39,354 nucleotides of DNA from Eubacteriales bacterium (GTDB lineage: Bacteria; Bacillota; Clostridia; Oscillospirales; Oscillospiraceae), in assembly GCA_030533415.1 (NCBI GenBank), contig JAUNJE010000028.1:1-39354 (forward strand), in the 5' to 3' direction. Below the pieces are notes generated by a model that worked only from the letters and a program-made list of their open reading frames with translations, had not been told where the DNA came from and searched no databases. Position numbers and translations under genes: made by a program. This document shows, piece by piece, positions 1 through 14,775 of this stretch (position 1 is its first letter; every line of letters starts with the position of its first letter).

Positions 1-104
1 CCCCAATCCCGGGGCCTGCCACTTTTTTACCCCCGGTAGGTTGTTAAGCGCTTACTGACAAAAGGTTCAAACAATGCTTCCGTGCCTATTTTCTTGAAAT
101 AGGC

Positions 105-485
105 GTGAACCTCAAAGAAGATACGGATGTCTTTGATGACATAACAGAATCCTACGAAAAGGAAAATATGCGTACCTTTGTGATTGAGGAAGAAAAAGAG
201 TTTGTAGGCTTTATTATGCTTCAACCCGATTATTTAATAGGAGGTTTCTTTGAAGAGCGAGTAGGCTTTATTCGTGAACTTTGGGTTTCACCATCATTTC
301 GACGGGTAGGATATGGTAAGCGGCTAGTCGAAATAGCGGAGGCTTACTTCAAAGAGAAGGGAATATCGAAGATTATCTTAACTTACGAAGATAATGCACT
401 GGTATTTTACCAAAAATTGGGGTTCAATCTTGATGGTTCATATAAAGCTAAGAATGACTTGAATGTTGTTATTAAATACTTTTAG
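105..485 (+). CDS. GNAT-family N-acetyltransferase, N-terminally truncated
   Basis: Predicted acetyl-CoA-dependent N-acetyltransferase of the GNAT fold; the substrate is unknown. The acetyl-CoA binding motif RRVGYG (residues 66-71) follows the strand ELWVSPSF, and the C-terminal ALVFYQKLGF segment is typical of GNATs. The assigned start is a GTG with no Shine-Dalgarno. The frame is open back to about position 48 without ATG and its residues read as GNAT-like (FRAYFLEIGV), so the first strand and helix of the domain are probably missing. The gene is AT-richer than the rest of the window and stands alone. Best read as an imported, 5'-truncated gene that may not be expressed. Confidence 0.6.
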   Translation: MNLKEDTDVFDDITESYEKENMRTFVIEEEKEFVGFIMLQPDYLIGGFFEERVGFIRELWVSPSFRRVGYGKRLVEIAEAYFKEKGISKIILTYEDNALVFYQKLGFNLDGSYKAKNDLNVVIKYF

Positions 486-847
486 GTGATAGCGATATTC
501 GCCGAGAGCCAGATCCCTAGCTATGAGGGAGAACCGCCCCAGTCTCTGCGAACAGTACAAAAGCGCACGCTATGTGAACTATTAATTTTTAAGCGGAGTG
601 GCGCTGCGTTAGCGGCGCCACTCCAGTTTTCCGCTGGATATGTTCATGGTTATAGAAATGAAGTTTCTGTCAATCCCTTCATTCGCCTCCTAGAATGGTT
701 CGGCTCAAGATTTGTAACTCTTTATCCAAACAAAAATCACGATTACTGTTGTGATAAGTAATTCCGTAAAAATTACAGAGGCATTCCATATTTCAAAATA
801 GAAATCATCTTGACCGCCCGCTAGTTCGGCTGGGTTTGCTATCTGAT
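486..847. other. Intergenic stretch with no supported gene
   Basis: These 362 bases contain a perfect inverted repeat (595-624, listed separately) but no reading frame with a credible start, ribosome binding site or recognisable protein. A 91-codon frame at 486-761 is open but reads straight through the inverted repeat and resembles nothing I know. Base composition matches the AT-richer truncated GNAT upstream, so this may belong to the same foreign segment. Confidence 0.6.
595..624. repeat. Perfect 10-bp inverted repeat with 10-nt loop
   Basis: GGAGTGGCGC at 595-604 is the exact reverse complement of GCGCCACTCC at 615-624, with a TGCGTTAGCG loop. It is much more GC-rich than its surroundings. 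No T-run follows on the plus strand, so it is not a classical intrinsic terminator. It could be the tip of a mobile-element end, a recombination hairpin or a transcript-processing structure; the sequence alone does not decide. Confidence 0.7.
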
Positions 848-1306
848 TTATGAAACGACTCTTATCGGCAAATACAGATAGTCCTTTCCTGTAGATGGGT
901 CGGTATAATCATGAACCGCTCCGACCAGAGAAATCCCCTCCTCATTCATTCGTCCAATGGTTTCTTCAAACGCTCCATTATGGTTTTCAACAACCAGATA
1001 CTCATAACCTGGTATTGTCCATTTTGTCCATCCATCCGGCGCTTGTGCATTCTCAACACATTCCACTCCCGCCAGATATAAGCCTTTGTGAAAGCCATCT
1101 TCCCAAGGCTGAAATGCGTGAGAAATATCAGACATAGCACCCCATATTCCCACAATATTCCCGTTTTCGTCTTTCTTTGCCAGATGTGCTACTTCACGAA
1201 AATGCGCGTTTGCATCATTCCACAATTTCTGAATAAATCCCTCGCCGTCTAATGTTGAGCCTTCTTTGCCAATGACAACAAATTCTTCCTTTATCACCTT
1301 AATCAT
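848..1306 (-). CDS. GyrI-like / AraC effector-binding-domain protein
   Basis: 152-residue stand-alone protein resembling the GyrI-like small-molecule-binding domain found at the C terminus of AraC-type regulators. No helix-turn-helix is present. Family-like features are the middle segment WTKWTIPGYEYLVVE and the late segment GKDYLYLPI. The start is the ATG at 1306, because GGAGG lies 6 bases upstream of it; an in-frame ATG 15 bases earlier lacks such a site. Members of this superfamily bind or hydrolyse hydrophobic small molecules, but no specific ligand can be read here. Monocistronic, with an operator-like palindrome just upstream (1351-1365). Confidence 0.75.
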   Translation of the reverse strand: MIKVIKEEFVVIGKEGSTLDGEGFIQKLWNDANAHFREVAHLAKKDENGNIVGIWGAMSDISHAFQPWEDGFHKGLYLAGVECVENAQAPDGWTKWTIPGYEYLVVENHNGAFEETIGRMNEEGISLVGAVHDYTDPSTGKDYLYLPIRVVS

Positions 1307-1350
1307 AGGATACCTCCGCAATGACGATTTGCCATTCGGTAATTGGAATT

Positions 1351-1365
1351 AAGTATATCATACTT
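1351..1365 (-). promoter_or_regulatory. Palindrome AAGTAT-ATC-ATACTT upstream of the GyrI-like gene
   Basis: Perfect 6-bp arms around a 3-bp centre, about 45 bp before the GyrI-like start. On the minus strand the palindrome contains TATACT, which could serve as a -10 element, but no convincing -35 lies 17 bp upstream. It may be an operator or simply AT-rich promoter DNA. Confidence 0.35.
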
Positions 1366-1519
1366 CCAGTCGTTTTTCTATCTATTTCTCCTTTATTTTA
1401 CGCAACAGCAGGGGTGAGCAAATTCTTGCGGGATTTTCCCCAAAAAACAGTTTTCCCGTGATATTCTCCCCGAACTGACGCCTATATAGGTGAGATCTCA
1501 AAAAAGAAAGGAGCACCGT

Positions 1520-2077
1520 ATGGAAGACGAAGCCATCGTTCAACTCTTTTATGCGCGCTCACAGGATGCCCTGATCATGACCGCACACAAATACGACAGG
1601 CTCTTGCACCGGATCGCCGGCAATATCCTGTGTGATCCCAGAGACGCGGAGGAAGCCGTGGAGGACGCGTATCTACGGCTTTGGAACAGCATTCCGCCAA
1701 ACCGCCCGAAGCAGTTCCAGGTCTACGCCATAAAGCTGTGCCGCAACGCCGCCCTGGATATCCTTCGCCATACCCGCCGGCACAAACGGGATGGCCGCAG
1801 GGATATTCTGTTTTCTGAGCTGGACGCATGCCTGCCCTCCCCCGGGGAAATCGGGGCCCGGCTGGAGGAGCAGGAACTGGCGGCAATGATCAACCGCTAC
1901 CTGGGGACATTGGACAGCGCCTCCCGGCAGCTGTTCGTCCGGCGCTATTTCTTCCAGGAACCGCTGGAGGACTTGGCAAGGGAAGCAGGTCTTACGAAGC
2001 ATGCCGTATCCGCGCGGCTGTACCGCATCCGCCAAGGACTGCAAAAATACTTGAAAAAGGAAGGGGTTGCAATATGA
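1520..2077 (+). CDS. RNA polymerase sigma factor, sigma-70 family (ECF-type)
   Basis: 185-residue ECF-like sigma factor directing RNA polymerase to a small regulon. Region 2 spans roughly residues 22-90 (helices around RDAEEAVEDAYLRLWNSI and a basic RHTRRHKRD end). Region 4 spans about 130-182 with a helix-turn-helix LAREAGLTKHAVSARLYRIR. There is no region 1 or 3. The ATG at 1520 is chosen because AAAGGAG lies 7-8 bases upstream; an earlier ATG at 1490 lacks a site. The stop overlaps the next start (ATGA), so the downstream gene is translationally coupled and is probably its regulator. CCTATATAGG at 1481-1490 lies in the leader and may be part of the promoter. Confidence 0.85.
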   Translation: MEDEAIVQLFYARSQDALIMTAHKYDRLLHRIAGNILCDPRDAEEAVEDAYLRLWNSIPPNRPKQFQVYAIKLCRNAALDILRHTRRHKRDGRRDILFSELDACLPSPGEIGARLEEQELAAMINRYLGTLDSASRQLFVRRYFFQEPLEDLAREAGLTKHAVSARLYRIRQGLQKYLKKEGVAI

Positions 2078-3033
2078 ACAAGGTCCACTGGGACGCCGTA
2101 CTGGGACAGCTTGACGACCGTTACATCCAAGAAGCGGCATCCGGCTATCGCCGTTCTGCCCGCCCCGCCTCCCCAAGAAAGGAGAATCTGATTATGAAAA
2201 CCATTAAAATCCGCAGAATTGCCGTCCTGGCTGCGGCATTGGTTCTGGTCTTTGCCCTGAGCATCGCCGCTTATGCCACCGGTCTGTTTGGCATTCTGGA
2301 CATGAAGGCGGAACTTGAGCACCGCCCGGAGGACGAACTCATCAACATCACCGGCTACCATGACTCCACGCAGTACCAGGCAAACATCGAATGGCAGAAT
2401 TACCTGGACGAAGCGGATGCAAACGGCACCAATGAATTCACTCCGGAGCAGGAGTTGGACGAATATGCGAATTACCGCGCTTACTCCCAGGAGGCCAAGG
2501 ACCGTCTGGACGCCCTGCTGGAAAAATACGGCCTGAAAATGTACAAAAGCAGTGAAAGCGTCTCCGGCCAAGAGGGGCTGTACGCCGCCGTAGGCGTGTC
2601 CGGCTTTCTCCCCGCCTCCGGCGGCCTGAAGGAAATGGAGATGGAGCCTTTCGGCACGGTGATCGATGGAAAATCCATCTACAGCTTCTGTGATTCCGCA
2701 AACCTCGCCAACGGGAAAAACTTCTACTACGACCTGTTCCGCATCCAGGCAGATACCTTCATTTACACCGGCTTCCTGCGGGGAAATGTGGAGGACTTCG
2801 AGGAGTGGACGTACACCGCAGGGGATGGCTCGACGGTAAGCCTGTGCCTGGGGAAGATACAATCCGCGCTGATTGCCCCGCTGGATAACTGCTTTGTCTT
2901 CTTCAACATCCGCACAGGCTCCGCCAACGACGACCCCAACCGCAGCTCCTACGGCAGGGATACGCTGACGAAGGCCGATCTGGAGGAATTCGCGGGAATG
3001 ATCGATTTTTCCGCCCTCAACAACATTGGATAA
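2074..3033 (+). CDS. Putative membrane-anchored anti-sigma factor with extracytoplasmic domain
   Basis: 319 residues starting at an ATG that overlaps the sigma-factor stop by four bases. A short cytoplasmic N terminus (about 1-46, beginning MNKVHWDAVLGQLDDRYI) precedes one hydrophobic segment (about 47-69), then roughly 250 residues predicted outside the cell. Clostridial sigma genes are often paired with proteins of this layout, whose cytoplasmic part holds the sigma factor. I do not recognise a named domain in the outer part and see no zinc-binding ZAS motif, so the anti-sigma role rests on gene order, coupling and topology. Followed by a strong terminator. Confidence 0.65.
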   Translation: MNKVHWDAVLGQLDDRYIQEAASGYRRSARPASPRKENLIMKTIKIRRIAVLAAALVLVFALSIAAYATGLFGILDMKAELEHRPEDELINITGYHDSTQYQANIEWQNYLDEADANGTNEFTPEQELDEYANYRAYSQEAKDRLDALLEKYGLKMYKSSESVSGQEGLYAAVGVSGFLPASGGLKEMEMEPFGTVIDGKSIYSFCDSANLANGKNFYYDLFRIQADTFIYTGFLRGNVEDFEEWTYTAGDGSTVSLCLGKIQSALIAPLDNCFVFFNIRTGSANDDPNRSSYGRDTLTKADLEEFAGMIDFSALNNIG

Positions 3034-3040
3034 AGCACGC

Positions 3041-3072
3041 AAAAAGCGAGAGGCATAAGCCCCTCGCTTTTT
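3041..3072. terminator. Bidirectional intrinsic terminator
   Basis: AAAAAGCGAG pairs with CTCGCTTTTT around a short loop, extended inward by a mismatch and two more pairs. Runs of T follow the stem on both strands. It ends the sigma/anti-sigma unit on the plus strand and transcription arriving through the galE-end copy on the minus strand. Confidence 0.85.
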
Positions 3073-3098
3073 CTGCCTAACATGGCATACAGTAACGG

Positions 3099-3437
3099 TT
3101 ACTCCCCGTAGCCCATAGGATTCTGGCTCTGCCAGCGCCAGGAATCCCGGCACATGTCCACCAGGTTCTTTTCCGCCTTCCAGCCCAGCACCTCCGCGCT
3201 CTTGGAAGGATCGGCATAGCAGGTCGCCAGGTCGCCGGGACGGCGCTCCACGATCTTGTAGGGCAGGGTCAGGTTATTGGCCTGCTCAAAGGCCTTCACC
3301 ATATCCAGCACGCTGTAGCCGGTGCCGGTGCCCAGATTGAATACCTCACAGCCCTGGTTCTCCACCACATACTTGACGGCGGCCACATGGCCCTTCGCCA
3401 GGTCCACCACATGGATGTAGTCCCGGACGCCGGTACC
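3099..3437 (-). pseudogene. Duplicated 3' fragment of galE
   Basis: This fragment encodes the last 112 or so codons of UDP-glucose 4-epimerase, in frame and ending in its own stop, but has no 5' portion. Positions 3103-3437 match 5127-5461 at 334 of 335 bases (the difference is G at 3402 versus A at 5426). The matches stop at the final codons: here GAG TAA, in the intact gene GAA TGA. It lies next to the bidirectional terminator, so it may be the original gene end left behind when the intervening segment was inserted. An internal GTG could start a short peptide, but function is unlikely. Confidence 0.9.
3103..3437. repeat. 335-bp direct repeat, copy 1 (galE 3' end)
   Basis: First copy of a direct repeat that is 334/335 identical to 5127-5461. 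The two copies are offset by exactly 2,024 bp and bracket the glucosyltransferase gene. Identity ends abruptly on both sides (next to the stop codon and at GGTACC). Confidence 0.95.
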
Positions 3438-3500
3438 CGCTTATCACATTTCGAAGCATCTCCTCAAAAAGTGGGAGCTTTTGCGTACTCGTGTTTTACA

Positions 3501-5048
3501 TTAGGCTTCAGTACCAAGGTGATCTTGGAACTTGATTACGACCCAATTGTCAATTACCTTAATAGAACCCTCGTCCGGCCAGCATGGCATGGCTTGTATT
3601 TCTTCTCTCTGGCATAGATACAAAAGGGTTTTTTCGTCTGCCAGTGGTGGCGAATAACCAATATAATTACGGAGCCATTCATAGCGACTGTATCGGTTCA
3701 ATAGGCTTTGGGCGTCCTCATTGCCGCCATATCTGTTTTCATACTGCCAGTAACTGCGTAGCATCGGGTCTTCAACGTCCCCAATAAAGGCCCATTCTTT
3801 TTCCTTGTCAAATCCTTCGGTCATACGAACCTGCACAACAATGGAATTTAGATAGTTTTCAACTTGCCGATTTGCGTAAAACATGGACGTATAGCTAATA
3901 TTTGCTTCATAGCTATAGCAGAAAATAATTGTACTGACTAACAGTGCAGTAAATTTGGTAAGCATCCTATTACATTTTGTCATGGTTTTCGAGAAAGGGA
4001 TACACTCTGCTACTACAAATGGAACACATGGGATTAGAACAAATGAATAGACCATCAGCGTATAAATCCACGAGTCCGGGCACATGATAACGATGAAATT
4101 AACCGCGATCGGAAATATTGCGCATAGAAGCAACACAATCACGGAGGTACCAATCTTTCGGAGTTTCCAGATGATGTAGCAAATCGAAAAAACGGATACT
4201 CCGTTCAGAAGTAGGTAGCTTAGTTTAATCAACCGCATGCCTGCCAGCCCGCAGTAATCCTTCACGGGAAACATACAGACGGAATAAGCCGCTTCCTTAA
4301 TCAGCTTGGGAAGGTCTGCCCAGACGATTTTTCCCATGCTATCAATACCCTGATAATCGCTGAGACTAGTGTTGTAAAGCCATAGAAATATTTTAAGGAA
4401 TAAAAAATATAGCAATAATCCCAATATTAGTGATGCGCACATGGATAGTACAGAGTAAATCAACTCCTTGATCTGTTTACCATCCATCGTCAAACGAAGC
4501 AATTGCAAAACAAAAATACCAATGGTCATTGGAGCATAGGCCTGATACAACCCCAAGGAAAAAGCGAGACACAATGCAGAGAGCAACATCCCCGAGTGAC
4601 CCTTTTCCAGTACCCAAGCCGCTATTACCGCTAGAAGCAAGCCAATACCATAGTATACCGATGTATAACGGAAATACAATGTAGAAGTTGCAGATGGAAA
4701 CACTACGAAAAGTATGCCAATTAGAATGCAGGAGGATTTCTTCTGGATTTTTAGTGCAGAAACCAAAAAACCGGCAGAAATAGCCACAATTAAAATAAAC
4801 AATACACCGTTTACAAAAGGTAAATTGTAATTTCCACCCCAAAAACCGACAAAATCACCAAGCCCGGTCAAAAACCATCTGCCAGAAGTGATACCAGTAC
4901 CATAGCCATAGGGCTGCTGAGCAATGTCGTCACAGCCGTGTATAGTGTTTACCAATCCATAAAAGTGGGTAAGTATTCCACATGTGGCTGCGCTAAAAAC
5001 TGCTGCGACGCTTCCCGAAGTACTTAAAAAATTTTTTATTGTTTTCAT
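3501..5048 (-). CDS. GtrII-type glucosyltransferase domain membrane protein
   Basis: 515-residue polytopic membrane protein resembling the glucosyl transferase GtrII family (Glucos_trans_II). About ten to twelve hydrophobic segments fill residues 10-375, followed by a soluble tail of about 140 residues. The first outer loop holds the adjacent acidic pair D40-D41 and the GRW motif (56-58) seen in the family. Relatives transfer glucosyl groups from a lipid-phosphate donor to surface polysaccharide. No gtrA/gtrB partner is nearby. GC content is clearly lower than in the flanks and the ribosome binding site is weak (GGATG), which suggests recent transfer. It lies downstream of galE with no terminator between, so it is probably read from the galE transcript. 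Confidence 0.75.
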   Translation of the reverse strand: MKTIKNFLSTSGSVAAVFSAATCGILTHFYGLVNTIHGCDDIAQQPYGYGTGITSGRWFLTGLGDFVGFWGGNYNLPFVNGVLFILIVAISAGFLVSALKIQKKSSCILIGILFVVFPSATSTLYFRYTSVYYGIGLLLAVIAAWVLEKGHSGMLLSALCLAFSLGLYQAYAPMTIGIFVLQLLRLTMDGKQIKELIYSVLSMCASLILGLLLYFLFLKIFLWLYNTSLSDYQGIDSMGKIVWADLPKLIKEAAYSVCMFPVKDYCGLAGMRLIKLSYLLLNGVSVFSICYIIWKLRKIGTSVIVLLLCAIFPIAVNFIVIMCPDSWIYTLMVYSFVLIPCVPFVVAECIPFSKTMTKCNRMLTKFTALLVSTIIFCYSYEANISYTSMFYANRQVENYLNSIVVQVRMTEGFDKEKEWAFIGDVEDPMLRSYWQYENRYGGNEDAQSLLNRYSRYEWLRNYIGYSPPLADEKTLLYLCQREEIQAMPCWPDEGSIKVIDNWVVIKFQDHLGTEA

Positions 5049-5122
5049 TTTCTACATCCAGTCTTGTACAAAACAATCAATATCCCCTTATGAGATGGGA
5101 AGCGGGTAAACTCAAACAGAGG

Positions 5123-6139
5123 TCATTCCCCGTAGCCCATAGGATTCTGGCTCTGCCAGCGCCAGGAATCCCGGCACATGTCCACCAGGTTCTTTTCCGC
5201 CTTCCAGCCCAGCACCTCCGCGCTCTTGGAAGGATCGGCATAGCAGGTCGCCAGGTCGCCGGGACGGCGCTCCACGATCTTGTAGGGCAGGGTCAGGTTA
5301 TTGGCCTGCTCAAAGGCCTTCACCATATCCAGCACGCTGTAGCCGGTGCCGGTGCCCAGATTGAATACCTCACAGCCCTGGTTCTCCACCACATACTTGA
5401 CGGCGGCCACATGGCCCTTCGCCAGATCCACCACATGGATGTAGTCCCGGACGCCGGTACCGTCGTGAGTGTCATAGTCATTGCCGTACACGCTCAAAAA
5501 TTCCCGGCGGCCAATGGCCACTTGGGTGATGTAGGGCATCAGGTTGTTGGGGATTCCCCGGGGGTCCTCCCCGATTTTGCCGGACTCATGGGCGCCAATG
5601 GGATTGAAATAGCGAAGCAGCACGATGCTCCAATCCTTGTCCGCATGGGCCATGCCGGAAAGGATCTGCTCTGTCATGTACTTGGTCCAGCCGTAGGGGT
5701 TGGTGCAGTTGCCGGTGCGGCTGGTCTCCCGCAGGGGCATTTCGTTATCACCGGAATAAACGGTAGCGGAGGAAGAGAAGATGATGCGCTTTACGCCGGC
5801 TTCCTCCATGGTCTTGGTCAGCACCAGGGTGGAATTTAAGTTGTTGTCATAGTAGCGCCAGGGCTGGGCCACCGACTCTCCCACGGCTTTCAGCCCGGCA
5901 AAGTGGATGACCGCGGAAATTTCGTTCTCCGCGAAGATTTTGCGCATCAGGGCCTCGTCCCGGACATCGCCTTCATAGAACCTGACCTTCCTGCCGGTCA
6001 GGGCCTCTACCCGGTCCAGGCTCTTGGGGTTGGAGTTGCACAGGTTATCCACTACGACGACGCCATAGCCGCTGTTCAACAGCTCCAGGCAGGTATGGGA
6101 GCCGATATATCCGGCGCCACCGGTAACTAAGATGTTCAT
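5123..6139 (-). CDS. galE: UDP-glucose 4-epimerase
   Basis: 338-residue short-chain dehydrogenase-type epimerase that interconverts UDP-glucose and UDP-galactose (often also the N-acetyl forms) using bound NAD. The N-terminal Rossmann motif GGAGYIG, the SSSATVY segment with the catalytic serine (about 124) and the Y149-x3-K153 pair in NPYGWTKY are all present. The ATG at 6139 is used because GGAGGT sits 7 bases before it; an ATG 15 bases earlier has no site. It lies 71 bp downstream of the hexosamine-kinase-like gene, forming a likely two-gene unit for galactose or N-acetylhexosamine use. Its 3' third is duplicated downstream. Confidence 0.95.
   Translation of the reverse strand: MNILVTGGAGYIGSHTCLELLNSGYGVVVVDNLCNSNPKSLDRVEALTGRKVRFYEGDVRDEALMRKIFAENEISAVIHFAGLKAVGESVAQPWRYYDNNLNSTLVLTKTMEEAGVKRIIFSSSATVYSGDNEMPLRETSRTGNCTNPYGWTKYMTEQILSGMAHADKDWSIVLLRYFNPIGAHESGKIGEDPRGIPNNLMPYITQVAIGRREFLSVYGNDYDTHDGTGVRDYIHVVDLAKGHVAAVKYVVENQGCEVFNLGTGTGYSVLDMVKAFEQANNLTLPYKIVERRPGDLATCYADPSKSAEVLGWKAEKNLVDMCRDSWRWQSQNPMGYGE
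5127..5461. repeat. 335-bp direct repeat, copy 2 (within intact galE)
   Basis: Second copy of the repeat, forming the C-terminal third of the intact galE. See copy 1 at 3103-3437. One base differs (A at 5426). Confidence 0.95.
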
Positions 6140-6210
6140 AAGAATTACCTCCAATATATAATATCCTGCAATCGTACTTTCCTGTATGACATTTTTATAA
6201 AGAAACAGGA

Positions 6211-7335
6211 TTACTTCGCGTATTTTGCCACCACAGCCGCCATCTGTTCAAACTGCGCTTCCATGTCCTTCACAAGCTTGAACTGGGTGCGGGTGCGGTC
6301 CAGGTTCTGCCGGGGATAGTGGATGTGGAAATAGCGGTCGCCGTCCAGGTAATCCGTCAGGAAGCGGATCCCGCATTCCAGCGTCATGAGCCGTGCGCCC
6401 CAGGGCAGGTATTCCAGCTCCGCCGGGGTCAGGCTGCCCTGGGCGCCTTCCAGGAAGCCCCGGGTGAAAACCTCGTAAAGGGAGATATCAAAATTGACCT
6501 TGGAAAGGTCCGTTTCATCCTCCTTGGAATGGTTGGCGCCAAACCGGATGGAATCGCCAAAATCGTTCATGCTCAGCCCCGGCATGGTGGTGTCCAAATC
6601 AATAACGCAGATGCCCTCCCCGGTTTCCCGGTCGATGAGGATATTGTTCAGCTTGGTGTCATTGTGGGTGACCCGCAGGGGCAGCTTGCCCTCCCGCAGG
6701 GCCTGCAGCGCCACGGAGCAGTCCGCCTTGCGTTCCAGCACGAACCGGACCTCCTCCGGAACATCCTTCGCACGGTCCATTTTGTCCGCTTCCAGCGCCG
6801 CCAGGAACTTGGCATACCGGTCCTCTGTATTGTGGAAGTTCACAATGGTCTCATTAAGGGTTTCGGCGGGATAGTCCTGGAGCATATACTGAAACCGGCC
6901 AAAGGCCCGGGCGGAAGCCTCAAACAGTTCAGGCGTCGCGGACTGGAAGCAGTCCGTGTTTTCAATAAAGGGCATCAGGCGCCAGACCTGGCCTTTGGAG
7001 TCCGTATAGAAGTCCCTTCCGTCCCTGGTTTTGACCAGGCTCAGCGTCTCCCGGAGGGGGTCCCCGCCATTTGCGCTGACCTTTTCCCGCAAAAAAGAAG
7101 TGATGCCGATAAAATTCTCCATCAGCTCCCCGGGATGGGGAAATGCCGCGCTGCTCAACCCCTGGAGAATAAAGCGGACGCAGTCTCCTTCCTGGGGCTG
7201 GCAGAGAACGCAGAACGTATCATTGATATGCCCCTGTCCGTACCGGACAGCGCCAATCAGGGTATCCGGAAAGCTGTATGCTCCCAGTACCTCAGCGAGA
7301 ATCGGGTCCTCTTCAGGAATAAAAAACTGACGCAT
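6211..7335 (-). CDS. nahK: APH-family sugar kinase, probable N-acetylhexosamine 1-kinase
   Basis: 374-residue phosphotransferase of the aminoglycoside/choline kinase fold. The catalytic loop THNDTKLNN (H224, D226), the magnesium-binding IDLDT (245-249) and the following DFGD (258-261) are intact. The stretch from the catalytic loop through DSIRFGAN and FLEGAQG closely resembles NahK, which phosphorylates GlcNAc/GalNAc at C1 in the lacto-N-biose/galacto-N-biose pathway. The adjacent galE supports a role in host-glycan sugar use. The phosphorylase and uridylyltransferase of that pathway are not in this window. Substrate is inferred from similarity and context; another hexose remains possible. 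Confidence 0.75.
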   Translation of the reverse strand: MRQFFIPEEDPILAEVLGAYSFPDTLIGAVRYGQGHINDTFCVLCQPQEGDCVRFILQGLSSAAFPHPGELMENFIGITSFLREKVSANGGDPLRETLSLVKTRDGRDFYTDSKGQVWRLMPFIENTDCFQSATPELFEASARAFGRFQYMLQDYPAETLNETIVNFHNTEDRYAKFLAALEADKMDRAKDVPEEVRFVLERKADCSVALQALREGKLPLRVTHNDTKLNNILIDRETGEGICVIDLDTTMPGLSMNDFGDSIRFGANHSKEDETDLSKVNFDISLYEVFTRGFLEGAQGSLTPAELEYLPWGARLMTLECGIRFLTDYLDGDRYFHIHYPRQNLDRTRTQFKLVKDMEAQFEQMAAVVAKYAK

Positions 7336-7437
7336 GATCAGGCTTCCCCTTTATATTAAAAATCTGTCAGGCAGTATTTCCGCAAATTGGGAATTGAAAT
7401 ATGCAAAGCTTCTAAATATACCACCTTACTTTTCTTC

Positions 7438-7466
7438 AGTATAGCACACCATGTCTCTGCTTGCAA
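7438..7466 (-). promoter_or_regulatory. Sigma-A promoter for nahK-galE
   Basis: On the minus strand TTGCAA (7466-7461), a 17-bp spacer and TATACT (7443-7438) form a good vegetative promoter about 100 bp before the nahK start. No obvious operator is seen. Confidence 0.65.
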
Positions 7467-7731
7467 TATCTTTCGGAGGTTTTTTCTGGGAAATTTTCCG
7501 CAAAAAATGTGTATAATTTGGAATCGTTTTCATCGTGAGATCATCTAATTTTGTTGATTTGTCCCAAAAAGCGAACTTTCAAACCGTTATTTAATTAACT
7601 TCTCTCAAATTTCCTGTATGCTGGAAATAGATATCATCTGTTATGCAAAATGGCAAATGCCATGGCAGCTGTTTTCCACAGCCTCCGTATTCAAACGATC
7701 ATTCAGCTGCTATTGTTTCGAAAGGCTGTTC
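7467..7731. other. AT-rich intergenic DNA, possible plus-strand promoter
   Basis: No protein gene is supported here. A TATAAT hexamer around 7511-7516 on the plus strand could be a -10 element, but the -35 region 17 bp upstream matches poorly. If active, its transcript would cover the 18-codon frame at 7732-7788 and run into the hairpin at 7805-7829. Confidence 0.35.
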
Positions 7732-7788
7732 ATGTCTATCGAGAAGAATCTGACCAGCGGCCTGACCGCAGGCGGCGTCAAGGGCTGA
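7732..7788 (+). CDS. Possible 18-residue peptide (MATE-like N terminus remnant?)
   Basis: An ATG preceded by AAAGG at a 6-base distance opens an 18-codon frame, MSIEKNLTSGLTAGGVKG, using the GC-rich codons of this genome. A strong hairpin follows 16 bases after the stop. The first ten residues resemble the start of many MATE exporters (pattern KNLTSG), so this may be the scar of a deleted transporter gene that kept its leader and terminator. It could also be a genuine small peptide, or chance. Confidence 0.25.
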   Translation: MSIEKNLTSGLTAGGVKG

Positions 7789-7796
7789 TTCCCAAA

Positions 7797-7835
7797 AGCA
7801 AAAAGCGGGCCGCGCTGTACGCGGCCCGCTTGTCT
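7797..7835. terminator. Strong GC-rich intrinsic terminator
   Basis: GCGGGCCGCG (7805-7814) pairs perfectly with CGCGGCCCGC (7820-7829) around a 5-nt loop. On the minus strand the stem is followed by CTTTTTGCTTTT, making a good terminator for the tandem-GNAT gene ending at 7899. The plus-strand side has a weaker T-rich tail. Confidence 0.85.
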
Positions 7836-7898
7836 TATGTCCAGCTTCTCCTGTAATGCTTCTGCGCAAAGGTGTTTTATCCCACCATCCTATTTCTT

Positions 7899-9092
7899 TC
7901 AAAACTCCCCATAATATTCATATACCGTTTCCACAATTTCAAAGCCCATCTTGGCATACATGTCTTTGGGTGTCTGGGAGGCGTCAGCATGGAGATACAT
8001 AACTCCGTCCAAAGTTTCAGCAATGTGCTTCATAATGGTGGTGGCAATGTACCGATTTCTGAACGCTTCCTCCACCCACAAATCATCCACCTCCACACAG
8101 CCCGCATGACACAGCGCATAGGCATTCCCAACGCGCCTGCCATCCTGATAGGCGCAATACCAGTGGTATTCCGGATGTGTCTTGGCCACTTCCAGCACCA
8201 TGCCCATGTTTCGGCAAGCTGCATCCCGGTATTTCTCCGGAACGGACGATACGTCCACCAGGTCTGCGCTAATATCGCTGGACTGAATATCCCGAATTTC
8301 AATTGCGGGATTTTTCTTCCAACGGAAGCTTTCATTCTTTGTCAGCGCCATGACATAGGTAACGGTTTCTTCCAGGCCAAAGTCTTTCTGTAAAGGCCGC
8401 TCCAGTGGCGTCTGCGTGCGCAGAAGGAAATACTGCAAGCCCCGGCTTTTTTGCAGTTCGATAGCTTCCTTGATGTCTTCCCGGTTCAGCGGCGCTATGG
8501 AGAAGAAAAAATTGTTGTTCTCCTGATCCGGGCGCGCATCGCTGTGCCAGCGGCAAAGGCGGTCATGGAAGGGCTTGCAGACAGCCCCGAATATTTCCCG
8601 CTCATGGTCATTGGTCCTGTGGACCGCCCTCAGCAGGGCTTCCCTGGAAGCGGGCAAAACCAGTTCCTGCACCGGATAGCCAAATTCCTCAGCTGGCGCG
8701 CCTTCCTCAAATCCGAAGCGCCAGTACAGCGCCCTGGGGGCAATCCCCCGTTCATCCCCGGCCCGGAAGGTCTCAACGGTAATGTCCCGTCCCCTGTTCA
8801 GACGGTTCAGTGCTTCCCGCAGCAGCATGGAACCGATTCCCTGCCGGCGGGCTTCCGGCAAAACCGCAAGGAAGCAGATTGTGTTGTGTTTTTCGGAAAA
8901 GAGCAGCACGCCAAGAATATCCTCCCCACGCCGGACGCACAGCGCCCGCTGCTCCTCCATGAAACGCAGCACCGTCTGCCTGTGCGCCTCCAGCGCCGCT
9001 TCTGTTTCCAGACCCGGGAAGCTGGCACTGACGCTGCGCACAAGCGTCATCCAGCGGGTGATATCCTCCCGCTTTCCGGTCTCCACCTTCAT
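7899..9092 (-). CDS. Tandem-domain GNAT N-acetyltransferase
   Basis: 397-residue protein with two GNAT modules. The N-terminal one (about 1-150) has a canonical acetyl-CoA motif RRQGIG (82-87) after FLAVLPEA. The C-terminal one (about 245-397) has WYCAYQDGRRVGNAYAL and then VDDLWVEEAFRNRYIATTIM, with a degenerate RNRYIA in place of RxxGxG/A. A linker of about 95 residues joins them. The intact first motif and altered second suggest one catalytic and one structural or divergent domain. Substrate unknown. AGGAGGGG lies 5 bases before the ATG. It is single-gene, divergent from the M42 peptidase, and ends at a strong terminator. Confidence 0.8.
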   Translation of the reverse strand: MKVETGKREDITRWMTLVRSVSASFPGLETEAALEAHRQTVLRFMEEQRALCVRRGEDILGVLLFSEKHNTICFLAVLPEARRQGIGSMLLREALNRLNRGRDITVETFRAGDERGIAPRALYWRFGFEEGAPAEEFGYPVQELVLPASREALLRAVHRTNDHEREIFGAVCKPFHDRLCRWHSDARPDQENNNFFFSIAPLNREDIKEAIELQKSRGLQYFLLRTQTPLERPLQKDFGLEETVTYVMALTKNESFRWKKNPAIEIRDIQSSDISADLVDVSSVPEKYRDAACRNMGMVLEVAKTHPEYHWYCAYQDGRRVGNAYALCHAGCVEVDDLWVEEAFRNRYIATTIMKHIAETLDGVMYLHADASQTPKDMYAKMGFEIVETVYEYYGEF

Positions 9093-9183
9093 CTATGCCC
9101 CTCCTTTGCTTCTTCATGGGTCACATATGTTCAATGCCGGGCCGCAAATTGGCCAGCGCTTTCAGTCCTGTCAAATCTGCATA

Positions 9184-9242
9184 AAAGGAGCAAGTTTTCC
9201 GCAATTTACCGGCAAAATAGACTTCATAACGCCTGCTCCTTT
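9184..9242. repeat. Nested intergenic inverted repeat
   Basis: AAAGGAGCA (9184-9192) pairs with TGCTCCTTT (9234-9242). Inside, TTTTCCG (about 9195-9201) pairs imperfectly with CGGCAAAA (about 9209-9216). The structure lies in the 265-bp divergent gap between the tandem GNAT and the M42 peptidase. It may be a short dispersed palindromic element or a regulatory structure; no coding role is seen. Confidence 0.5.
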
Positions 9243-9288
9243 CCAAAACGATAGGAAAATCATACCATCCCTTAACCGGTTTGTCAAC

Positions 9289-9318
9289 TTGACTTTTCCC
9301 CTGTCCGGCATATATAAT
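9289..9318 (+). promoter_or_regulatory. Sigma-A promoter for the M42 peptidase
   Basis: TTGACT (9289-9294), an 18-bp spacer and TATAAT (9313-9318), about 40 bp before the start codon. A strong vegetative promoter by sequence. Confidence 0.8.
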
Positions 9319-9357
9319 GGATTTTATCGAAATTTGCAGAATTGGAGCTGAAAGCCT

Positions 9358-10395
9358 ATGAACAAAGAATTCCTCTATACCCTGCTGGACAGCATGTCCG
9401 TTTCCGGCCATGAGATTCCCCTGCAGAAGAAGGTTATTGCGGAGATGACCCCCTATTGCGATGAGATCCGCACGGATTACACCGGCAATGTCATCAGCAT
9501 TCTCAACCCCGGTGCCCCCTTCAAGGTGATGCTGGCGGCCCACATCGATGAGATTGGCCTGATTGTCACCCATATCCAGGAGGATGGGCTGCTTCGGGTG
9601 GCAAAGTCCGGCGGGATTTACCCCAGCCTGTATCCCGGCCACCAGGTGGTGGTGCACGGATACGCCGGCCCCATTTACGGCGCCGTGGTACACTCCAAGG
9701 ACACGGAAAAGGCCGAGCTGAAGGTGGGCGACCTGCACATTGACATCGGCGCCAAGGATGCCGAAGACGCCCGGAAATATGTCCAGGAGGGCGACCCCAT
9801 CCACCTGAATACTTACCATGCGGAAATGCCCAACAGCTTTCTCTCCGCCCGGGCGGTGGATGACCGGGGCTGTGCCTTCATCATCCTGGAAGCCCTGAAA
9901 CGGGCAAAGGAGCGGGGCTGCCGCATCGGCGTCTACGCCGCCACCACTGTAGGGGAGGAGACCACCATGCGGGGCGCTTACTGGGCGGCCAGTGCCGTAA
10001 AGCCCGATGTGGCCATCGCCGTGGATGTGACCTTTGCCTTCGACTATCCCGGCACCGATCCCAAGGAGTCCGGAAATGTGCGGCTGGGAAAAGGCCCCGT
10101 CATCTGCAACAGCTCCATTGCCAACCGGAAGGTCAATGAACTGCTGAAATCCTGCGCCAGGGACAAAGGCCTCCCCTACCAGATGGAGTCCTACATGGGC
10201 AGCACCCACACCGACGCGGATAAGATCCACTTCTCCGGCACCGGCGTGGTCACCGCCCTGCTGTCTCTGCCCCTGCGGTACATGCACTCCCCCAGCGAAG
10301 TGTGCCACATGGATGACATCGAAAACGCCATCGAGCTGCTGGCGGAATTCCTGTGCCGCATCAACGAAAGCACCGATCTGGACCCCTTTCATTAA
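9358..10395 (+). CDS. M42-family metalloaminopeptidase
   Basis: 345-residue cytoplasmic peptidase of the M42 family (PepA/FrvX/YsdC type), which forms large tetrahedral complexes that trim N-terminal residues from peptides. Family metal-binding and catalytic segments are present in order: AHIDEIG (H62, D64), SARAVDDRGC, TVGEETTMRGA and a late GSTHTDADKIH. Length is normal for the family (about 340-360). GGAG precedes the ATG. Relatives prefer acidic or broad substrates; specificity cannot be read here. Expressed alone from a strong promoter and followed by a terminator-like palindrome. Confidence 0.9.
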   Translation: MNKEFLYTLLDSMSVSGHEIPLQKKVIAEMTPYCDEIRTDYTGNVISILNPGAPFKVMLAAHIDEIGLIVTHIQEDGLLRVAKSGGIYPSLYPGHQVVVHGYAGPIYGAVVHSKDTEKAELKVGDLHIDIGAKDAEDARKYVQEGDPIHLNTYHAEMPNSFLSARAVDDRGCAFIILEALKRAKERGCRIGVYAATTVGEETTMRGAYWAASAVKPDVAIAVDVTFAFDYPGTDPKESGNVRLGKGPVICNSSIANRKVNELLKSCARDKGLPYQMESYMGSTHTDADKIHFSGTGVVTALLSLPLRYMHSPSEVCHMDDIENAIELLAEFLCRINESTDLDPFH

Positions 10396-10440
10396 AACCG
10401 GATGCGGCTTTCAGCGTAATGCGTCTCATTATGATCTTCC

Positions 10441-10480
10441 CATTAAAAAGTTCCATTCTGGCGAATGAAACTTTTTAATG
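10441..10480 (+). terminator. Terminator-like palindrome after the M42 peptidase
   Basis: CATTAAAAAGTT pairs with AACTTTTTAATG, with an inner CATT/AATG pair and one mismatch around CTGGCG. The run of T is inside the descending arm. It probably terminates the peptidase transcript, and the symmetry would also allow it on the minus strand. Confidence 0.6.
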
Positions 10481-10504
10481 GAACATCAGTATCAAAATTC
10501 CCCC

Positions 10505-10532
10505 TTGCACTTTTCGAAAAAGGTACTATAAT
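10505..10532 (+). promoter_or_regulatory. Sigma-A promoter for the MATE exporter
   Basis: TTGCAC (10505-10510), a 16-bp spacer and TATAAT (10527-10532). The expected start of transcription is at about 10538-10540, exactly where the following hairpin begins. Confidence 0.75.
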
Positions 10533-10537
10533 GCGTA

Positions 10538-10571
10538 CTGAACAACGCATGGCTTTTCATGCGTTGTTCAG
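10538..10571 (+). promoter_or_regulatory. Perfect 14-bp hairpin at the 5' end of the MATE mRNA
   Basis: CTGAACAACGCATG (10538-10551) pairs perfectly with CATGCGTTGTTCAG (10558-10571) around a 6-nt loop GCTTTT. It starts at the predicted transcription start and ends about 22 bases before the ribosome binding site. No T-run follows, so it is not a terminator. It could be a dyad operator for a repressor or a 5' stabilising stem in the mRNA. Confidence 0.7.
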
Positions 10572-10608
10572 GTGCGTTAATATATATATTATAAAGAGGT
10601 GCTTTTTC

Positions 10609-11994
10609 GTGAAAGGTCTGAACAAGGACATGCTGCACGGGCCTCTGTTCTCCAGCATCGTCCTTTATACCATTCCCATCATTTTGACGAGCCTTTTGCA
10701 GCTGCTGTTCAATGCGGCAGATCTGGTGGTGGTGGGCAGGTTCTGCGGCAGTGTTTCCGTAGCCGCCGTCGGCGCCACCGGCGCCATCACCAACCTGATC
10801 ATCAACCTGTTTATCGGCCTGTCCGTGGGCTGCGGCGTCTCCGTGGCCCACGGCCTTGGCAGCCGGGAAAACAACGTGGTGCACCGCACGGTACACACCG
10901 CCCTGCCCACGGCACTGGTCAGCGGCGTGATTCTGACGGTCGTAGGCATCGCCTTCTCCGAAACCTTCCTGCGGCTCATGGGAACGCCGGACACTGTGCT
11001 GCCCCTGTCCGCCGTGTACATGAAAATCTACTTTGCGGGCATCACCTTCAACATGGTGTATAACTTCTGCGCCGCCATCCTGCGGGCGGCGGGGGATACC
11101 AAAAGTCCCCTGGTCTTTCTGCTGTTTGCCGGCATCGTCAATGTGGTGCTGAACATTCTTTTTGTCACGGTGTTCCACATGAATGTGGCGGGTGTGGCCC
11201 TGGCTACCACGGTCTCTCAGGCCATCTCCGCCGTTCTGGTGGTGCTGGCCCTGATGCGCCGAACCGACGCCTGCAGGCTGACCCTGTCCAAAATCCGAAT
11301 CTACAAGCCCCAGCTGCAGAAGATCCTCCGCATCGGCCTTCCCGCCGGTATTCAAGGCTCTCTGTTCTCCATTTCCAATGTGCTGATCCAGTCCTCGGTC
11401 AACTCCTTCGGCGATGTGCTGATGTCCGGCAATGCCGCTGCCGCCAATATTGAAGGCTTTGTCTATGTGAGTCTGAACGCTTTCCAGCAGACGGCGGTGA
11501 ATTTCATCGGGCAAAATGCCGGCGCAAAGCAGTATAAACGGGTCCTGCGGACGCTGCTGATCTGCCTTGGCTGTGTCTGCGTGGTGGGCCTGTCCACAGG
11601 CTTCCTGGCCTATTCCTTTGGGCCTACCCTGCTGTCCATTTATATCACGGACTCCCCGGAAGCCATCTCCTACGGCATGATCCGCCTGGGTTTCATCTGC
11701 CTGCCCTATTTCCTGTGCGGGCTGATGGATGTGGCCACCGGCGCCCTGCGGGGCATGGGGGCGTCCTTTATCCCCATGGTCATCTGCGTTCTGGGTGTCT
11801 GTGGCATCCGCATCGGCTGGATCTACACCATTTTCCAGCTGCCCCAGTTCCATACGCCCCAATGCCTGTATTTTTCCTATATGTTCTCCTGGTCGGTGAC
11901 CTTCCTGTGCGAGATTACAGCATTTTTCGCCGTGTACCGAAGGCATGTCAAAGAAGAATCCACGCCGCTTCTTTCCGAATCCATGTCCCAATAA
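10609..11994 (+). CDS. MATE-family efflux transporter
   Basis: 461-residue membrane protein of the multidrug and toxic compound extrusion family, exporting cations or drugs by Na+ or H+ antiport. Twelve hydrophobic segments form two related halves, beginning with the typical KGLNKDMLHGPLFSSIVLYT lead-in and the segment NAADLVVVGRF in the first helices. The GTG at 10609 is the start because AAGAGGTG lies 7 bases upstream; the frame is open further up, but that stretch is promoter and hairpin. Substrates cannot be predicted. It stands alone between its own promoter and a bidirectional terminator. Confidence 0.9.
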   Translation: MKGLNKDMLHGPLFSSIVLYTIPIILTSLLQLLFNAADLVVVGRFCGSVSVAAVGATGAITNLIINLFIGLSVGCGVSVAHGLGSRENNVVHRTVHTALPTALVSGVILTVVGIAFSETFLRLMGTPDTVLPLSAVYMKIYFAGITFNMVYNFCAAILRAAGDTKSPLVFLLFAGIVNVVLNILFVTVFHMNVAGVALATTVSQAISAVLVVLALMRRTDACRLTLSKIRIYKPQLQKILRIGLPAGIQGSLFSISNVLIQSSVNSFGDVLMSGNAAAANIEGFVYVSLNAFQQTAVNFIGQNAGAKQYKRVLRTLLICLGCVCVVGLSTGFLAYSFGPTLLSIYITDSPEAISYGMIRLGFICLPYFLCGLMDVATGALRGMGASFIPMVICVLGVCGIRIGWIYTIFQLPQFHTPQCLYFSYMFSWSVTFLCEITAFFAVYRRHVKEESTPLLSESMSQ

Positions 11995-12000
11995 AAAAGC

Positions 12001-12042: not shown

Positions 12043-12687
12043 TTATTTTGTCATTTTTTCCTGTTTGACCTTGTGGTCAATGACATGGCGTCCGGCAAGC
12101 TCCTTGCGGACATCTTCCACCGTAATACCCATCTGCGCCATTAAAACCAGGACATGATAGGCAAGATCCGCAATCTCATAGATGGTTTCGGCCTTGTCGT
12201 CAGCCTTTCCCGCGATGATGACCTCCGTGCTCTCCTCGCCCACCTTTTTCAGGATTTTATCCACACCCTTCTGAAACAGGTAGGTGGTGTAAGACCCCTC
12301 GGGAAGCTTCTTTTTCCTGTCCAGAAGCAGCTGGTACAGTCCCTCCAGTTGGAACTTGTCCGCATTTTCCCCCAGGACCGGATTGGTAAAGCAGGAATCC
12401 GTCCCCAAATGACAGGCCGGACCATCCTTCTTCACCCGGACCTCCAGGGCGTCATAGTCGCAGTCGGCGGTAATGGAAACGATGTGCTGGTAATTGCCGC
12501 TGGTCTCTCCCTTCAGCCACAGCGCCTGCCGGGAGCGGCTCCAGAAGCAGGTCAGCCCCTTTTCCATGGAAATTGCCAGGCTCTCCCGGTTCATGTAGGC
12601 CAGGGTCAGCACCTTTCCCGTCTCATCGTCCACCACAATGGCGGGGATAAGCCCTTTTTCGTCAAATTTCAGTTTTTCAATATCCAC
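12043..12687 (-). CDS. hisIE: Phosphoribosyl-AMP cyclohydrolase / phosphoribosyl-ATP diphosphatase
   Basis: 214-residue bifunctional enzyme for histidine steps 2 and 3. The N-terminal HisI domain (about 1-105) has the [26 protein letters not shown] and DCDYDAL segments with the metal-binding acidic residues and cysteines. The C-terminal HisE domain (about 110-205) is an all-helical pyrophosphatase with the [11 protein letters not shown] motif. The start is GTG with a GAGG about 10 bases upstream, only 4 bases after the hisF stop. Last gene of the his operon, directly before the bidirectional terminator. Confidence 0.95.
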
Positions 12688-12691
12688 CGTA

Positions 12692-13450
12692 TCACAACCT
12701 CACCAAAATATTGTTGTCCCGCAGGGTTTGTTTCAGGTCGGGGATCTGCACTTGTCCAAAGTGGAAAATGGAGGCGGCCAGCCCCGCGTCCACCTTGGGT
12801 AATGTTTTGAACAGGGTAATAAAATCCCCCTTACAGCCCGCACCGCCGGAGGCGATGACCGGGACCTCCACCGCATTGCTGACAGCTTCCAGCATTTCCA
12901 GGTCGAAGCCCTGCTTCACGCCGTCGGTGTCGATGGAATTCAGCACCACCTCTCCGGCGCCGTTGGCAACGCACCGCTTGATCCAGGAAATGGCTTCCAT
13001 CCCCGTATCCTCCCGTCCTCCCTTGGCAAATACCCGGAATTCCCCGTTTACCCGCTTCACATCGGCGGAAAGCACCACACACTGGTCTCCATAAAGCCGC
13101 GCGGCGTCACGCACCAGGTTTGGGTCCCGGATGGCGCCGGAATTGACGCTGACCTTGTCGGCGCCGCATTTGAGCACCCGGTCAAAATCCTCCACCGTAT
13201 TGATGCCGCCTCCCACCGTCAGGGGAATGAAGATGGTGGAGGCCACCTGGGTCAAAATGTCCGTAAACAGCCTGCGCCCCTCGGCAGAGGCCGTGATGTC
13301 GTAAAACACCAACTCGTCCGCGCCGTTATCGCTGTAAAATTTCCCAAGCTCCACGGGAGAGGAAACATCCCGCAGGCCCTGAAAATTGGTTCCCTTCACC
13401 ACCCGTCCATCGCGGACATCCAGGCAGGGAATGATGCGTTTCGTAATCAT
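12692..13450 (-). CDS. hisF: Imidazole glycerol phosphate synthase, cyclase subunit
   Basis: 252-residue (beta/alpha)8 barrel. With HisH it converts PRFAR and ammonia to imidazole glycerol phosphate and AICAR. Catalytic aspartates D11 ([12 protein letters not shown]) and D130 ([10 protein letters not shown]) are both present, as are the phosphate-binding GGGI and ASGGAG loops. Length is normal. The start overlaps the hisA stop by 4 bases, so translation is coupled. Confidence 0.97.
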
Positions 13451-14172: not shown

Positions 14173-14775
14173 CTACATACTGCAGAATGCCCGCAAAATG
14201 GACAGCCCCACGCTGCCGCTTTTTTCCGGGTGAAATTGACAGCCAAAAACATTGCCCCGCTCCACGGCCGCAGTAATGGGAACGCCATATTCCGTCACGG
14301 CGGCAAGGGAATCGTCACAGCCATCGGCAAAATAGGAGTGAACGAAATACACATATTTTCCGTCCATGGCTTGCAGCAGCCTGCCGCTTCTGACCTCCAG
14401 ACGGTTCCAGCCCATGTGGGGGATCTTCAAGCCGGCGGGGAGCCTTCCCTCCATGGGAATCACCCGGCCCTTCAGCAGGCCCAGTCCTTCATGCTCGCCG
14501 TATTCAAAGCTCTTCTCAAACAGCAGCTGCATCCCCAGGCAGATGCCAAGCAGCGGCTTTCCGGCTGCGGCCTGTTCCCGGACAAATCTGTCCAGCCCGG
14601 ACTGGTGAAGCTTATTTGCCGCATCCCCGAAGGCGCCGACGCCGGGCAGCACCAGCCGGTCGGCGGCCGCCAATTGTTCCGGCCCGCCGCTGACAAAGGC
14701 CTCCTCCCCGATGGCGCCGAAGGAGGAGCGCAGGGAAAACAGATTCCCCACACCGTAATCGATGATGCCAACCAT
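14173..14775 (-). CDS. hisH: Imidazole glycerol phosphate synthase, glutaminase subunit
   Basis: 200-residue class I glutamine amidotransferase that supplies ammonia to HisF. The catalytic triad is visible: nucleophile C79 in GICLGMQLLF, and H182 and E184 in CQFHPEKSG. The oxyanion strand LPGVGAFGD is also present. Its ATG shares one base with the hisB stop, giving tight coupling. Confidence 0.96.
   Translation of the reverse strand: MVGIIDYGVGNLFSLRSSFGAIGEEAFVSGGPEQLAAADRLVLPGVGAFGDAANKLHQSGLDRFVREQAAAGKPLLGICLGMQLLFEKSFEYGEHEGLGLLKGRVIPMEGRLPAGLKIPHMGWNRLEVRSGRLLQAMDGKYVYFVHSYFADGCDDSLAAVTEYGVPITAAVERGNVFGCQFHPEKSGSVGLSILRAFCSM

Follow-up and report, generated by a model that had tools for sequence, protein, structure and literature searches.

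We analysed a window of 39,354 nucleotides (nt) from an Eubacteriales bacterium of the family Oscillospiraceae (assembly GCA_030533415.1, contig JAUNJE010000028.1), in which the 3' end of galE, the gene for UDP-glucose 4-epimerase, occurs on both sides of a glucosyltransferase gene, here called gtr. The source assembly comprises 2.72 Mb in 80 contigs and is 88.5% complete; the window makes up part or all of one of these contigs (C40). The complete galE lies on the minus strand at 5123–6154 (NCBIfam TIGR01179, E = 1e-135; PRK10675), with an ATG start at 6139 and an alternative TTG at 6154. It ends with GAA TGA (stop codon at 5123–5125), and no strong terminator follows. A spacer of 74 nt (5049–5122), with only a weak terminator-like match, separates it from gtr (3501–5048), which has the same orientation and encodes a GtrII-type glucosyltransferase of 515 amino acids (PF14264; PHROG 4829). 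The 63-nt 3' flank of gtr (3438–3500) is joined, between 3437 and 3438, to a second, 5'-truncated galE tail on the same strand, in which an in-frame GTG at 3410 is the only possible start. This tail is closed by a TAA stop codon (3099–3101) and by an intrinsic terminator with a 14-bp stem (3041–3072, minus strand), recognized in the fold of 3020–3110.

The galE segment present in both copies (nt 679–1013 of the gene) occupies 5127–5461 within the complete gene and 3103–3437 in the stranded tail. These direct repeats are identical at 334 of 335 positions and are offset by 2,024 bp; stretched to 5121–5461 and 3097–3437, they agree at 338 of 341 positions and diverge past that. The sole mismatch within the 335 bp (3402/5426) is synonymous (GAC versus GAT). 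The stranded fragment corresponds to the final 339 nt of the 1,017-nt galE. The first-pass annotation of this DNA had described such a pair of galE ends around a gtr gene low in guanine plus cytosine (GC), the intact gene ending in GAA TGA and the orphan in GAG TAA beside a terminator; all of these features were confirmed in the sequence. A scan for direct repeats of at least 80 bp and at least 90% identity within 12 kb gave one pair in the window. Since the same scan gave no pairs in 20 sampled stretches of the same genome (349,760 of 2,723,851 bases), chance is not a serious option as the source of the galE repeat. Among loci of the genus (704,813 bases), three pairs were found, all formed by one intergenic repeat in a single locus (L151), and 80 galE loci from other species (883,620 bases) contained ten pairs in five loci, mostly local tandem repeats. 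The repeat in L151 (genome G033) has a length of 114–171 bp and lies behind galE at 9099–9214, 12652–12822 and 14432–14602 of that locus, the copies being 90–97% identical.

Comparison within the genus indicates which of the two galE ends is native. One genome was taken per species, which places exchange between strains outside the scope of the comparison, and the galE and GtrII stretches fetched for mapping were chosen matches, not the full set. Of 48 mapped galE stretches, 40 3' ends from 39 relatives could be compared. The stop codon is TAA in 36 of these and TGA in four, and a terminator-like hairpin lies within 150 nt behind galE in 32. The same filter, applied to the locus studied here, found a terminator behind the stranded fragment and none behind the complete gene. 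The region 3020–3110 folds with −33.4 kcal/mol (z = −3.56). The terminator at 3041–3072 was absent from the list of a simple terminator scan, probably since the stem extends into the T tract; its symmetry suggests that it acts both ways, facing the convergent protein gene on the plus strand (2074–3033), whose best relative in the genus shares 30% identity (among matches with E = 1e-15 or better). The same scan, looser than the filter above and listing eight sites versus 3.7 expected in shuffled sequences, placed behind the complete galE a weak site at 5133–5116 (six pairs, three of them G–C) that overlaps the end of the gene, and the fold of the galE–gtr spacer stretch is no more stable than those of shuffled sequences (z = 0.32). 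Since galE in the genus usually ends in TAA followed by a terminator, and not in TGA lacking a strong one, the stranded end is taken to be the native one. This supports the earlier proposal that the old galE end was left behind and that the complete gene carries a replacement.

The gtr product matches Glucos_trans_II (PF14264) over essentially the full profile (positions 1–316 of 317; E = 2.9e-61; 207.8 bits versus a cut-off of 30) and the GtrC-like PHROG 4829 with E = 9.5e-19; it had no NCBIfam match. The Pfam family GtrII takes its name from the gtr(type) glucosyltransferases. The GC content of gtr is 41.6%, versus 56.0% for the window and 47–61% for 13 relatives from the genus with at least 39% identity. 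In a phylogenetic tree, gtr falls inside a clade of 14 GtrII rows from the genus (support 100/100), within which the tree leaves its place unsettled, and the other GtrII gene of the source genome (contig C76) falls apart from this clade. The closest relatives share 53–54% identity (G086 and G153), and those of the genus span 44–54%; they were found in a genome search and were missed by a contig search tuned to close relatives. At a threshold of 1e-100, gtr was detected among 400 sampled genomes of the family only in its own genome; few genomes in this sample belong to the same genus, and that threshold would hide weaker relatives. No match was found in phages, and plasmids gave one relative with 25% identity. 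The protein pattern of gtr was not detected in viral contigs, nor was any match confirmed in a wider collection of genome contigs, both being searches that find close relatives only. The gtr gene is thus foreign to the galE locus, yet its nearest kin were found within the genus and not in phages.

In the 12 stretches fetched from around other GtrII loci (L202–L213), galE was not detected. In G002, the gtr relative comes after four GT2 genes near smc, and the GtrII loci of G153, G086, G048 and G047 resemble this one by gene size and order only. The GtrII gene of G138 and the second copy in G002 adjoin a large gene, which in G138 encodes glutamine synthetase; the other GtrII loci stand apart. 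The locus near smc in G002 (L205, contig C35) contains four GT2 genes, another glycosyltransferase gene and three GtrII genes, and is apparently a variable surface-glycan locus.

The galE–gtr arrangement is best read as one homologous event in galE combined with a non-homologous joint at nt 679 of the gene. At the joint (3437/3438), comparison of 23 nt of the insert flank with the galE sequence upstream of nt 679 revealed no evident homology. All open reading frames of at least 70 codons in the insert (3438–5122) are gtr or overlap it; none encodes an integrase, and the insert thus has no room for one. Incoming DNA from a close relative would have carried a galE end (GAA TGA) followed by gtr. 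Recombination with the resident galE, by a crossover in the galE tail on one side, would have left this gene complete, and on the other side the incoming DNA would have been joined to the resident galE at nt 679 without homology. The native tail, with its TAA and terminator, would in this way have been cut off from galE and stranded behind gtr, which would have been acquired between the two galE copies. The kinship of the donor, the order of events and a linear rather than circular donor are points that we infer. That a single, recent, additive capture took place next to galE is a tentative conclusion, to which we give close to an even chance.

Several observations weigh against such a capture. 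The two galE tails differ by one single-nucleotide polymorphism (SNP), and this site has C in 16 and T in 13 of 29 relatives, so their kinship cannot be traced. The loose scan did assign a weak terminator-like site to the complete galE, and a clear terminator is missing from eight of the 40 galE ends of relatives. With one genome per species, donor and empty site were not seen at strain level. Furthermore, assemblies of this genus are frequently interrupted in the stretch that contains the inner joint, and template switching within one cell would give an identical product.

The break-prone stretch bears on the rival that we consider unlikely but have to take most seriously, namely that the arrangement is an assembly artefact. 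Two strains, or a chromosome and a free molecule of 2,024 bp, could have been joined through the 300-bp exact repeat when the assembly graph was left unresolved. The source assembly is incomplete and fragmented, and 15 of 18 contig-edge breaks in the galE genes of relatives fall within nt 509–762, the quarter of the gene that holds the breakpoint of the window (binomial tail 3.4e-7 versus an even spread, the breaks not all being independent). These 18 breaks come from 13 genomes chosen as partial galE matches (L158–L177), with the partial matches in G046 and G054 not among them. Two breaks, at nt 670 (G043) and nt 675 (G153), lie within 10 nt of the breakpoint in the window, where the fragment starts at nt 679. 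Within nt 509–762, some stretches are highly conserved at the nucleotide level and have k-mers in common across species, and this conservation probably causes the breaks. However, the fragment is 99.7% identical to the galE of its own genome and is thus not the tail of another species, the SNP located 35 nt inside the joint distinguishes the sequence on the joint side, and the contig continues through both copies, for about 3 kb beyond one side and 34 kb beyond the other. A 300-bp repeat would also exceed the k-mers usually applied to short reads. Apart from the case studied here, metagenome contigs from this genus often stop within the conserved central part of galE, which could mislead readings of gene-end duplication in such assemblies.

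The first-pass annotation had attributed the arrangement to a single crossover of a circular molecule carrying a galE end and gtr. Campbell integration of such a ready-made circle would yield exactly the observed product, with 335-bp direct repeats in the right polarity, and to that extent the proposal fits. The circle itself is hypothetical, and the insert offers no room for an integrase. No circle of this kind was met; there was no match in viral contigs, either by protein, for close relatives, or by the joint sequence, and the phage and plasmid searches gave nothing beyond the 25% relative noted above. A circle already carrying the galE tail and gtr would also require the same non-homologous joint beforehand, which only moves the origin of the joint elsewhere. 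Capture anchored in galE is the simplest founding event, and we regard integration of a ready-made circle as improbable.

Two further explanations rank below anchored capture. The first is template switching during replication in one cell, where the polymerase would leave galE at its stop codon, copy gtr from elsewhere and return at nt 679. This would account for near-identical tails without a second strain, and the inner joint would need no homology. However, no second copy of gtr that could have served as template was found in the assembled genome (complete to the extent given above), where the insert and the galE tail likewise have no further copy. In addition, the match between the two galE ends resumes beyond two differences at the stop codon (hence 338 of 341), a hint of a real second galE end, and we consider template switching rather improbable. 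The second is a degraded site-specific element (prophage or island) that supplied a new galE 3' end and was later deleted down to gtr. It has the same anatomy as prophage e14 in icd of Escherichia coli, which supplies a new 3' end of the gene and strands 163 bp of the old one, icd' (PMC6379469). The breakpoint falls in a 60-nt stretch (nt 661–720) that is among the most conserved in galE, and PHROG lists GtrC-like genes (4829) among phage morons. Set against this, the insert has no room for an integrase, although one may have been lost; a supplied tail 99.7% identical to that of the host would, in our judgement, be unusual for an independent element; and no other genome of the genus has a second tail on its galE contig at E = 1e-38. 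Such an element is a highly improbable origin.

The most far-reaching proposal is that the galE tail serves as a reusable docking and release site: circles of 2,024 bp, consisting of the tail and one glycosyltransferase gene, would enter and leave by RecA recombination, and cells in a gut population would switch their surface sugar while galE stays intact. This is very improbable. At E = 1e-38, a threshold that would miss shorter tails, the galE tail was matched in 110 of 136 genomes searched from the genus and had two matches in six, and only in the source genome are both on one contig; in the other five (G044, G053, G135, G148 and G154) they lie on separate contigs. The partial tails that were fetched end at contig ends, and none of them represents a shown second case. 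The 80 galE loci from other species contained one second galE match, with 23% identity. The suggestion of the first-pass annotation that the galE tail acts as an integration site for swapping glycan genes thus found no support, and no other cargo between galE-end copies was seen in related genomes at that threshold. The genes that follow galE vary greatly from species to species, and most are ordinary. For 31 of the 40 loci with a galE end, one protein encoded downstream was scanned; in L141, L145 and L218, whose first gene was small, this was the product of the second or third. Among these, one neighbour is a glycan-synthesis gene (CpsB/CapC in L218), six have no Pfam match at 1e-5, and no GtrII was found among the 31. 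A hotspot for glycan cargo behind galE was rejected on these counts. A literature search on the galE tail of this genus found no paper. Plain tandem duplication fails, since the sequences diverge just behind the two stop codons, and it was rejected also in view of the native-type end on the stranded copy.

Some relatives show other structures at galE. In five loci (L141, L143, L170, L175 and L215, from G009, G030, G053, G145 and G138, respectively), a conserved block resembling phage head and packaging genes lies directly behind galE. In the four loci followed further it extends over about 10.5 kb; a terminase is evident in G009 and G138 and a major head protein in G138, the rest being assigned by clustering. 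No second galE coding tail was found along the block in these four loci, and a prophage at the galE tail was rejected as a candidate, although short intergenic repeats of the DNA that follows galE reappear over about 13 kb, with lengths of 26 bp in G009 and of 27 and 46 bp in G145. From these recurring repeats, an attachment site may be present behind galE in the phage-block loci. In G028, the 5' part of galE (codons 1–166) runs into unrelated sequence (L166; contig C67, approximately 327–950), and a second locus (L165, at the start of contig C43) begins at galE codon 97. The 204-nt overlap of the two is 86% identical, and L165 and L166 thus represent different alleles, copies or strains.

The insertion leaves galE with its full protein. 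Since the strong terminator now lies behind gtr, gtr would be read from the galE transcript, and co-transcription is likely given the same direction of both genes and at most a weak terminator between them. Upstream of galE lies a gene for an APH-fold kinase (6211–7335, minus strand; PF01636), which occupies this position in 13 of the 35 relatives' loci with a mapped upstream gene and may, by its context, be a sugar kinase. RecA recombination between the 335-bp repeats would likely delete gtr and restore the native galE end; the galE–gtr state may therefore be unstable. If real, the locus is a fresh, nearly undecayed snapshot of a surface-sugar gene bolted onto a housekeeping gene without harm, in a Clostridia genus from the gut that is represented here mainly by metagenomes. 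Elsewhere in the window, a low-GC stretch (39–44%) at 105–1321 encodes a GNAT acetyltransferase and a Cass2-like effector-binding protein and adjoins genes for an ECF sigma factor and for a partner protein that has no close relatives in the genus.

Several known systems share features with this locus. Homology-facilitated illegitimate recombination has reportedly been described in papers on Acinetobacter and Pseudomonas. In natural transformation, incoming DNA anchored by homology can give partial duplications and merodiploids; these duplications concern other species, and the pneumococcal case needs repeats in both donor and host (PMC3784515). As in e14/icd, a new gene end is supplied and the old one is stranded on the far side, but e14 is a prophage with site-specific integration, which the galE–gtr insert has no room to encode. 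The serotype-converting clusters of Shigella consist of three genes, gtrA, gtrB and gtr(type) (PMC3259042). Here, in contrast, gtr stands alone in the insert; GtrA-family genes lie on other contigs of the genome (C60, C72 and C73), which was not searched for gtrB.

The closest published case, by analogy, is the galE1/galE2 scar of the capsule island in Neisseria meningitidis. There, an intact galE1 and a 5'-truncated galE2, which keeps the last 615 nt, belong to Regions D and D' (PMC5349592, PMC6202450). The remnant has been modelled as the old galE of the recipient after illegitimate recombination into galE (PMC5349592); a later paper argues against Region D' being a duplicate of the meningococcal Region D (PMC6619384). 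Both loci have lower-GC surface-glycan gene(s), acquired horizontally there and presumably also here, between an intact galE and a 3'-only remnant, here the last 339 of 1,017 nt. The meningococcal repeats are inverted and contain rfb genes, and a portion of a 24-kb island is flipped by them, whereas those of the present locus are direct, with no inverted pair found in window positions 1–12000, and enclose a single cargo gene. The meningococcal remnant is taken to be the old allele of the recipient; in our case, the native-type stop and terminator are on the remnant, and the tails differ by one SNP. The present host is a Clostridia species, and the arrangement is known from one genome. By this analogy, the galE–gtr event would be of the type proposed for the meningococcal capsule island, and the locus, which resembles that older scar, could serve as a test case for the model in which one joint is homologous and the other illegitimate.

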